From Planctomycetia bacterium (GTDB taxonomy: Bacteria; Planctomycetota; Planctomycetia; Planctomycetales; Planctomycetaceae): DNA of 64,000 nt. Below are positions 1-16,147 of the stretch, piece by piece. The position numbers were made by a program, and so were the translations under genes. The stretch lies in NCBI GenBank assembly GCA_016200145.1, contig JACQFH010000043.1, positions 1 to 64,000 of the forward strand, read 5' to 3'. A model generated the notes under the pieces. That model saw only the letters and a program-made list of their open reading frames with translations. It was not told the origin of the DNA and made no database searches. The stretch's first letter is position 1, and each line of letters begins with the position of its first letter.

Positions 1-1
1 T

Positions 2-94
2 TCCGACGACGGCGGGGGCGATGCAGGATTCATGGCCACACGTTTTAGCGCATCGTCGGCGGAATGCAATCCGAGTTCGCCAAGCTTCGGTTGA
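2..94 (+). CDS. Possible C-terminal end of an upstream gene (cut by window edge)
   Basis: An open frame runs in from the left edge and stops with TGA at 92-94, overlapping the first bases of the serpin gene in a different frame. It encodes about 30 residues rich in Gly, Ser and Ala and matches nothing I recognise. If real, the next gene starts inside it, as expected for translational coupling. Too little is visible to name a function, and the frame may be fortuitous. Confidence 0.25.
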   Translation, partial: SDDGGGDAGFMATRFSASSAECNPSSPSFG

Positions 95-2667
95 GAATTC
101 GAAAAATTCACAGCCTGTCCGCGTGGGGAGTCGCGTGGCTGGTCATGAGCGCGACGGTTTTGCTGGCACTCTTTCTGAGAGGGGCTCCGCGGCAGGACAA
201 GCCCGATCTTTCGCCTGCAATGTCCGAGATGCCGGCCGGACCTGCCGCGCCGATCGTCACGGCTGCCGAGCAGCGAGAATCAGCGATCCACCGCGCGCTG
301 GGCGAAACGATTTCCGTGGATGTCAACGACGTGCCGCTCGACGAGGCGGTCCGCGACTTGGCGCAACGGGCAGCCGTCCCGATCGAGTTTGACCGCGAGG
401 CGATCAGCGACGACGGGATCTCGCTCGGCAAGCTGGTCACTCTCAAAGTTCCGCGGATCACGCCGCGCTCTGCGTTGAGGCTTCTGCTCGACCCGGACCA
501 ACTTACATTCGTCGTCGCCAACGAGGTATTGCTGATAACACCCACGTCAAGAGCAGCGGATCTGCTTGAAGTTCGAGTCTATGACGTCACGGATCTGGTC
601 TTGGTCGCCGACTCGAAGGCGCCGGGGCGAGCCGATTTCATTTCTCTGATGAACATGATTTCGTGTTCCGTCCAGCCCGACTCCTGGGAAGATCTCAGCG
701 GACCTGGATCGATGTCGCGCCTCTCGCTTGGGACGCGCCGCGTTTTGTCGATTCGTCAGACACAAAGGGCTCATGCCGAAGTCGACCGGCTGTTAACCGA
801 CCTGCGCTACGGTCGAAAGGTACGAGGATCTCCCGGACCGCACCCGATCGTCGTGACGTCCGATCGGACTGCCGCAGCGTTGCGGGAAGAGGCGATCCGC
901 AAGGCGCTGGATCGCAACGTAACCGTCGAGGCCGAGCATCAGCCGCTGGATGAAGTCCTTACGAAAATCGCCGCGCAGGCCGGCGTTCCGTTCGTCATCG
1001 ACCGCACTCGGCTCATTGAAGACGGTGTAGACATCAGGAAACGCGTGTCCATGCATTACGCGCAGATCTCGGGTCGATCGGCGCTGGCCCTGCTCCTGAA
1101 GCCAGTGCAACTGGCGTGGATCGTTCAGCACGAAGTTTTGCAGATCACAACCATGGCCCACGCCGCCGATGCCATAACTCATCAGATCTACGACATCAGC
1201 GACATCGCGGGCAAATTTCGTGCTCAGAATGGCAAGGTCAATTTCGACGTTACGTCGCTGTCGAATGCGGTCACGACATTGGTTCAGCCCGATGGATGGG
1301 AGGAAGGAAACCATTACCCGGGAGTATTCCGTTTCCACGACGGCGTTTTCCTTGTGTACCGGCAGACGCAATCCACACATGAAGAAATCGCCGCGTTCCT
1401 GTTCGAACTTCGAAAAGTGCGGCTCGCGGACCCGGCAGGATCCCAGCCGCAGATATTCGAGTCAACGTACGGTGGAATGGCCCGCAGTCCGTGGCGTGCC
1501 GCTGATCCTGCGCGCGATGCACTTGTTCGCGGAAACAACCAGTTCGCTTTGGAACTCTATTCGAAACTGGCCCGCGACACGTCCGGCAATCTGCTGGTTT
1601 CTCCGTATTGCATTTCGGGCGCGGTAGCCCTGGCCTACGCCGGCGCGCGCGGACACACGGCCGCAGAGATTGCAGCCACCATGCACTATGTCGTCAGGCA
1701 GGAGGACGTGCCCGCGGCGTTTCGCTCGTTGCAGCCCGGGATGTTCCTGTGGGGGCCCGACGCCCGGTTGCAACTCACCCGCCAGTTCTGGGGCCGCCAG
1801 GGGATTGAATACCAGGCGGCATTCCAGAAGGTTCTGGGCGACTATTACCAGTCGGCCATTTTGCCGCTCGATTTTGCCGATCCGGGGGCCGCAGCCCAGG
1901 CCATCAACGGCTGGACCGTGGCGCGCACAGGCGGCTCAATCCTGCGGCTGGCGAATCCCGGGGACTTCACGCCGACCACAGGATTCGCCGTGGCCAGTGC
2001 CGTGCATTTCGACGGAAAATGGTCGAGTCCATTCGATCCGGCGGCGACGCGTCTGACCGGATTCGCCAGCCCGAACGGGCAAGTCGACGTCGCATTGATG
2101 CACCTGCCAGCCGACAGGTGCCGGTATGCGGTCGTCGACGGTGTTCAGATCCTCGAAAAGACTTACGGCAAACAGGACGTCTCGATGGTCGTCCTGTTGG
2201 CTCCCGAGTCACCGTCGGGGCTGACTGTCCTGGAAGCCGCTCTCAACGAGAACAGCCTGGCCAGATGGTTGGCCGCCCAGGACTCGCAAGAGGCCGAGAT
2301 CTTCCTTCCGCGATTCAAATTGGAATCGGCGTTCAATCTTCGCCGGGAGCTGGAGGAACTGGGAATGCGATCAGCCTTCGACTCGGAGGCCGCCGATTTC
2401 AGCGGCATTTCCGAGTCGCAGCGGTTGGCGCTCTCCGGCGTGGTCCACAAAGTCTTCGCGCAGTTCGATGAACAGGGACCGCGCCTGGCTCCGGGAATGG
2501 GCGAACATCGCGCGCCCGGCCCGAACGCCAATCCCCAAGTCCCTGTCTTTCGCGCGAATCGCCCATTCCTGTTTCTGATTCGCGACACACAATCCGGCAG
2601 CATCGTGCTCATCGGACGCGTCGTCCGTCCTGAAGCCGTGGACCGACCGGCGATTCCGACCGATTGA
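64..2667 (+). CDS. Membrane-anchored protein: two STN-like modules fused to a C-terminal serpin domain
   Basis: The 867-residue protein has a signal anchor at about residues 18-36. Two copies of a module of about 170 residues follow (about 78-255 and 265-445). Each carries a PLDE motif in an STN-like fold (VPLDEAVRDLA and QPLDEVLTKIA), a VLLIT/VLQIT strand, and an S..VQPD(S/G)WE motif. From about 480 to the end lies a serpin domain, shown by NLLVSPYCISGAVALAYAGA, the HKVFAQFDEQG hinge start, the RPFLFLI motif and a GRVVRP end. Serpins usually inhibit serine proteases by a mobile reactive loop. Here the hinge after the Glu-Gln-Gly is PRLAPG, not the small-residue run of inhibitory serpins, so inhibition is doubtful. 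The protein probably faces the periplasm. SGNH hydrolase follows 12 bases after the stop. Confidence 0.85.
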   Translation: MQSEFAKLRLRIRKIHSLSAWGVAWLVMSATVLLALFLRGAPRQDKPDLSPAMSEMPAGPAAPIVTAAEQRESAIHRALGETISVDVNDVPLDEAVRDLAQRAAVPIEFDREAISDDGISLGKLVTLKVPRITPRSALRLLLDPDQLTFVVANEVLLITPTSRAADLLEVRVYDVTDLVLVADSKAPGRADFISLMNMISCSVQPDSWEDLSGPGSMSRLSLGTRRVLSIRQTQRAHAEVDRLLTDLRYGRKVRGSPGPHPIVVTSDRTAAALREEAIRKALDRNVTVEAEHQPLDEVLTKIAAQAGVPFVIDRTRLIEDGVDIRKRVSMHYAQISGRSALALLLKPVQLAWIVQHEVLQITTMAHAADAITHQIYDISDIAGKFRAQNGKVNFDVTSLSNAVTTLVQPDGWEEGNHYPGVFRFHDGVFLVYRQTQSTHEEIAAFLFELRKVRLADPAGSQPQIFESTYGGMARSPWRAADPARDALVRGNNQFALELYSKLARDTSGNLLVSPYCISGAVALAYAGARGHTAAEIAATMHYVVRQEDVPAAFRSLQPGMFLWGPDARLQLTRQFWGRQGIEYQAAFQKVLGDYYQSAILPLDFADPGAAAQAINGWTVARTGGSILRLANPGDFTPTTGFAVASAVHFDGKWSSPFDPAATRLTGFASPNGQVDVALMHLPADRCRYAVVDGVQILEKTYGKQDVSMVVLLAPESPSGLTVLEAALNENSLARWLAAQDSQEAEIFLPRFKLESAFNLRRELEELGMRSAFDSEAADFSGISESQRLALSGVVHKVFAQFDEQGPRLAPGMGEHRAPGPNANPQVPVFRANRPFLFLIRDTQSGSIVLIGRVVRPEAVDRPAIPTD

Positions 2668-16075: not shown

Positions 16076-16147
16076 GCGGGTGTAACTCAGTGGTAGAGTA
16101 CCACGTTGCCAACGTGGTTGTCGTGGGTTCGAACCCCATCACCCGCT
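16076..16147 (+). tRNA. tRNA-Gly (anticodon GCC)
   Basis: The cloverleaf is complete: acceptor GCGGGTG with CACCCGC, D-arm ACTC/GAGT, anticodon stem CCACG/CGTGG with loop TTGCCAA (anticodon GCC), and T-arm GTGGG-TTCGAAC-CCCAT. The discriminator base is T and no CCA is encoded. It reads glycine codons GGC and GGT. It precedes trigger factor by about 90 bases. Confidence 0.97.

Follow-up and report, generated by a model that had tools for sequence, protein, structure and literature searches.

A gene joining two repeated modules to a complete serpin

The window, by which we mean the whole 64,000-nucleotide stretch of planctomycete DNA analysed here, carries near its start a forward-strand reading frame of 867 codons (Table 1). 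The reading frame is real: neither stop nor frameshift interrupts it, its codon use is host-like, and codon statistics favour the annotated frame in the modules, the serpin and the reactive loop alike. From a hydrophobic N-terminus, the protein continues through two tandem modules of ~190 amino acids to a complete serpin. Further along the window lies a tRNA gene (16076-16147, +), the sole Rfam match at gathering threshold within it.

The beginning of the gene requires some care, as the contig (C157 of 742) begins inside a dispersed repeat, nearly all 12 copies of which sit at contig ends, and the window start is itself a contig end. Within the repeat, the stretch holding the first 21 codons has a codon use that is not coding-like. 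Because the ATG at 64 and these 21 codons fall within the repeat, neither the native start of the protein nor its membrane anchor is certain. The original prediction described the protein as membrane-anchored; the hydrophobic stretch at residues 20-38 speaks for this, whilst the position of the start codon inside a repeat weakens it, and we regard anchoring as plausible. Export appears likely, considering both this segment and the N-termini of the sister fusion proteins described below, which are signal-peptide-like or hydrophobic as judged by eye and hydropathy.

Table 1. Features of the serpin fusion gene, in window coordinates
Feature	Position	Strand	Evidence
Dispersed repeat, 12 genome copies; covers the first 21 codons, from the ATG at 64	1..127	+	92-99% identity to 11 other places
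Whole ORF, N0N1-N0N1-serpin fusion, 867 aa, true start uncertain	64..2667	+	ORF call and codon statistics
Hydrophobic segment, residues 20-38; may be a membrane anchor or a signal that is not cleaved	121..177	+	Highest 19-residue hydropathy in the protein, 2.09; topology inferred
Module 1, N0-like (STN) part, residues 67-164	262..555	+	Pfam STN 28.0 bits vs cut-off 28.4; AlphaFold2 model, with fold matches in the PDB
Module 1, N1-like part, residues 169-252	568..819	+	Identity 60% with the N1-like part of the host's C305 protein; AlphaFold2 model
Module 2, N0-like part, residues 270-369	871..1170	+	Module 2 vs module 1 identity 38%, E=2e-38; AlphaFold2 model
Module 2, N1-like part, residues 371-455	1174..1428	+	42% identity to C305; AlphaFold2 model
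Junction DPARDALVRGNNQF, upstream of serpin, common to sister fusions	1504..1545	+	Four-fusion alignment: D, RDA, V, N, A invariant
Serpin domain, residues 490-856, complete	1531..2631	+	PF00079 E=2.9e-83; 203 solved serpin sequences matched
Reactive-loop region, P15 to strand beginning FRANRPF	2476..2547	+	Length equals L179; hinge aligned without gaps
Altered hinge P15-P8, GPRLAPGM	2476..2499	+	Unique among 167 serpins

The modules resemble the N0-N1 domains of secretins

Two repeated modules of STN type had been proposed from the sequence, and this holds: one module occurs twice, at residues 66-262 and 263-465, the copies align over 191 amino acids, and their model matches an N0-N1 fold. 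The Pfam STN family (PF07660) covers residues 119-160 at a score barely below its cut-off when the whole protein is searched, and module 2 alone reaches 12.1 bits. Closer to home, module 1 aligns to a secretin-like protein encoded on contig C305 of the same genome, in the same N0-then-N1 order and with 35% identity over the N0 part; this protein has STN and secretin-domain matches of its own, both under the Pfam cut-offs. Modelled with AlphaFold2 from 13 sequences, the two modules have a mean pLDDT of 78, and their best PDB matches are the periplasmic N0-N1 structures of secretins (EscC, XcpQ, InvG and PilQ; E=1.8e-4, probability 1.00). We relied on this module-only model, having discarded a full-length one from four aligned fusions in which pLDDT was 45 and the serpin part unfolded. 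Because of these structural matches and the ordered matches to the C305 protein, the STN-like modules are, by sequence and model, best described as secretin-type N0-N1 pairs.

In secretins, the N0-N1 region contacts partner proteins. The likeness to GspD/XcpQ, PilQ and EscC/InvG extends to the N0-N1 order and the predicted fold; however, the modules are here duplicated and followed by a serpin, and a search for the secretin barrel (PF00263) gave no match in the protein at E up to 1. N0-N1 modules are common in the host genome and its relatives, including in serpin-free tandem-module proteins; three further host loci (L015, L017 and L022) place them in proteins with VIT/vWA parts and after M56-peptidase-like parts, the M56 assignment being by eye. 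A 120-bp piece of the C305 secretin-like gene (L016:956-1075) also recurs, at 87% identity, in a different reading frame on contig C545 (L018:2631-2750).

The hinge of the reactive loop is replaced

A serpin is normally a protease trap. That the domain is complete, as first proposed, is borne out by a PF00079 match of 280.6 bits (cut-off 27) spanning profile positions 2-370 of 370. The consensus hinge of inhibitory prokaryotic serpins is ExGTEAAAA (PMC10090351), and insertion of P14 is a prerequisite for inhibition in the serpins studied (PMC3268027). At P17-P9, the window protein reads EQGPRLAPG, which fits neither this consensus nor the looser pattern of small residues at P12-P9 with Thr or Ser at P14. 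After the Glu-Gln-Gly come Pro (P14), Arg (P13), Leu (P12), Ala (P11), Pro (P10), Gly (P9) and Met (P8), where nearly every relative has GTEAAAAT across P15-P8. The original prediction of a Pro- and Arg-containing hinge, unlike the small-residue hinge of inhibitors, was thus correct, and alignments to solved, planctomycete and bacterial serpins all gave a non-inhibitory hinge at this place, none an inhibitory one.

How unusual is this hinge? The 166 other serpins have Thr at P14 in 159 cases and Ser in five, Glu at P13 in 156, and Ala at P12 in 163 and at P10 in 156; proline occurs in none of them at P14 or P10, and arginine at P13 in two. By a test that we set ourselves (Thr, Ser or Val at P14 and small residues at three or more of the positions P12-P9), 164 of the 167 aligned bacterial serpins carry an inhibitory-type hinge, the failures being the window protein, L034 (P14 Ile) and L061 (P14 Met). 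These counts should be read with the sampling in mind, as ~80 of the 167 came from a scan for a post-loop pattern and are biased towards typical C-termini, whilst the other ~90 came from Pfam searches, which have no such bias. The window copy probably does not inhibit proteases in the classical way, although the hinge rule predicts this loss rather than proving it.

Could the hinge simply be misread? A sequence or assembly artefact, for example through a compensated loop frameshift or chimerism at the contig end, might be suspected of a gene that begins at a contig end and inside a repeat, and one alternative frame across the loop does read GTAPGSG. Yet this frame scores worst on loop codon use (-0.48 against 0.19 for the annotated one), the unchanged loop length would demand two exactly compensating indels, and an error at the 5' end would leave the hinge unaffected. 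We rejected a compensated frameshift on the codon score and the equal loop length, and consider an artefact of any of these kinds highly improbable.

Most sister fusions retain inhibitory-type hinges

Scanning the named genomes with a single sequence returned nothing, and scanning them with an alignment returned two further fusions. In all, four other planctomycete genomes carry N0N1-serpin fusions, so that the search for the same architecture, suggested at the outset, was productive: JADLEL010000130.1 and JAJFUI010000357.1 encode intact proteins with two modules each, G150 has a fusion with one module, and that of G163 has two modules in a frameshifted gene. We describe the family by one or two N0-N1 modules, an RDA junction and a C-terminal serpin, with the serpin domains falling in one clade; the window protein shares this domain order and junction motif.

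The sisters differ from the window protein at the hinge, three of them having inhibitory-type hinges (L179, EEGTVAAAAT; L206, EFGTEAAAVT; L047/L070, EEGTKAAAAT) and the fourth, the G163 fusion (L061), a partly relaxed one (EIGMEVAVAT). In a tree of serpin domains from which the loop columns were excluded, the window protein forms a clade with L179 and L206 (support 97/89). Constraining L047 to lie beside these three gave a likelihood above that of the free search, and a single clade of all five fusions is not rejected (AU p=0.315), though neither is it demonstrated, and the long branches call for caution. Because the L179, L206 and L047 fusions carry inhibitory-type hinges, the simplest account is that the inhibitory hinge was lost in the window lineage, with the reservation that an unrooted tree leaves this direction unproven. 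For the same reason, we rejected the idea that fusion itself implies non-inhibition, and the earlier suggestion of binding or signalling is, in view of the hinges of L179, L206 and L047/L070, not supported for the fused architecture as such.

These sister hinges also raise the possibility that the window serpin is a working inhibitor of an unusual kind, whose atypical hinge inserts slowly or which blocks a protease without insertion. The fold, the breach and most shutter positions are kept, including the equivalents of S53, H334, E342 and G344 (alpha-1-antitrypsin numbering), and the changes in the shutter, S56 to Cys and N186 to Ser, fall at positions where some sisters vary too; we therefore dropped them as independent proof of non-inhibition. 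Nevertheless, such an inhibitor would have to work with prolines at P14 and P10 that no other serpin of the set has and an arginine at P13 that is almost as rare, when P14 insertion is needed for inhibition in the serpins studied (PMC3268027), and we find it improbable.

Within the family, 42 of 170 genomes have serpins, as do 116 of 392 genomes sampled across the phylum; the order-wide set consists of the same number of genomes, 170, all of that family. The altered hinge is known from one genome only. The other genome of the genus yielded no ortholog of the window protein; the serpin that it does have lies in two pieces at contig ends and follows an N-terminal extension read as FecR-like, an assignment that Pfam did not confirm.

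Is the window gene then in decay, its 5' end overrun by the repeat and its native start lost, with a drifted hinge and a serpin no longer used? This is the main rival explanation, and several observations suit it: the repeat covers the start codon, the inhibitory hinge is gone, otherwise conserved residues (the equivalents of S56, N116, N186 and F384) are altered, the other genome of the genus showed no ortholog, and the host retains a second serpin with an inhibitory-type hinge. Core conservation is also slightly under that of the sisters, the window protein agreeing with 0.79 of the columns conserved at ≥90%, the lowest of the five, against 0.81-0.93 for the four sister fusions. On the other hand, across strongly conserved columns its core agreement is 0.75-0.87 (0.73-0.97 for L047, L179 and L206), from which we infer that the fold remains under constraint, if perhaps a little weaker than in the sisters. 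Decay would also have to leave all 867 codons open and host-like in usage, and to cluster its changes in the hinge whilst leaving the loop length unaltered. Taken together, we regard it as possible but doubtful.

A proposed role: a serpin without a trap on a docking scaffold

The reading that we prefer, and to which we would give about even credence, is that of a probable envelope protein of a small planctomycete N0N1-serpin family, with a replaced hinge, whose serpin would no longer be a suicide inhibitor and would instead be cleaved, or bind a ligand, on a docking scaffold. The protein would probably be exported, may be tethered to the inner membrane through the hydrophobic segment near its N-terminus, and would present its two N0-N1 modules and C-terminal serpin in the periplasm, the N0-N1 scaffold placing the serpin in the envelope. 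Because the hinge is replaced at P14 (Pro), P13 (Arg), P12 (Leu) and P10 (Pro), the reactive loop should be unable to insert into sheet A, and a protease would cut it as a substrate rather than being trapped. The serpin might in that case serve for binding, as a decoy or as a sensor that is read by cleavage.

How does this compare with known serpins? The inhibitory prokaryotic serpins chloropin, miropin and thermopin (PF00079) likewise have a complete serpin fold by sequence, and chloropin (8gxv) is the second-best solved match; the window protein, however, lacks the ExGTEAAAA hinge and has its serpin fused behind four extra domains, whereas the characterised inhibitory prokaryotic serpins are, to our knowledge, single-domain. 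Among animal proteins, ovalbumin, HSP47 and the hormone-binding globulins also have, within a serpin fold, a hinge that departs from the inhibitory consensus, and several are sequence matches, but we see no sign of a common ligand or of common descent of the hinge loss, the nearest relatives of the window serpin being bacterial. The Streptomyces Group U serpins (PMC8233489) are bacterial and predicted to be non-inhibitory from sequence, as here; these deviate in the breach and shutter and many keep the hinge motif, whilst in the window protein it is the hinge itself that is replaced.

The window protein appears to combine known fold families in a way that is undescribed in the literature searched, whose scope excluded most subscription journals. 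Bacterial serpins are poorly understood, and here one is attached to secretin-type docking modules. A 2023 paper stated that it was unknown whether non-inhibitory functions exist among prokaryotic serpins (PMC10090351); fusions that share this architecture, some having the inhibitory hinge and one lacking it, offer a natural pair for a direct test.

Other serpin fusions in planctomycetes

The second serpin of the host (L012 / L001, contig C399) fuses FHA and GAF domains to a serpin over 720 codons and has the inhibitory-type hinge EKGTEAAAAT. Eight proteins of family f50 (L141, L150, L161, L163, L164, L165, L167 and L171) combine an ECF sigma factor, a hydrophobic segment and a serpin in single reading frames, the sigma regions being confirmed by Pfam in the two tested (L141 and L163) and assigned by eye from sequence similarity in the other six. 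Others (L054, L159, L172 and L052+L053) consist of a hydrophobic segment, a FecR-like part and a serpin; Pfam returned FecR only in L172, and there with 23.9 bits where the cut-off is 24. Judging from these sequences, planctomycete serpins are fused time and again to ECF sigma factors, FecR-like parts, FHA-GAF domains and N0-N1 modules. In a literature search that excluded most subscription journals, we found no relevant paper on planctomycete serpins, on serpins with sigma factors or on the other fusions described here.

Perhaps the planctomycete serpin is not only a free inhibitor but a recurrent envelope-signalling module, separately fused in each case, with cleavage of its loop by an envelope protease as the signal, and the window variant would read cleavage or a ligand without trapping. 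We offer this as a speculative and rather unlikely extension. The attachment of serpins to secretin-type docking modules and, among related bacteria, to sigma factors would make protease-sensing signalling testable. Some serpin proteins, finally, have SH3-like N-termini, assigned by eye.
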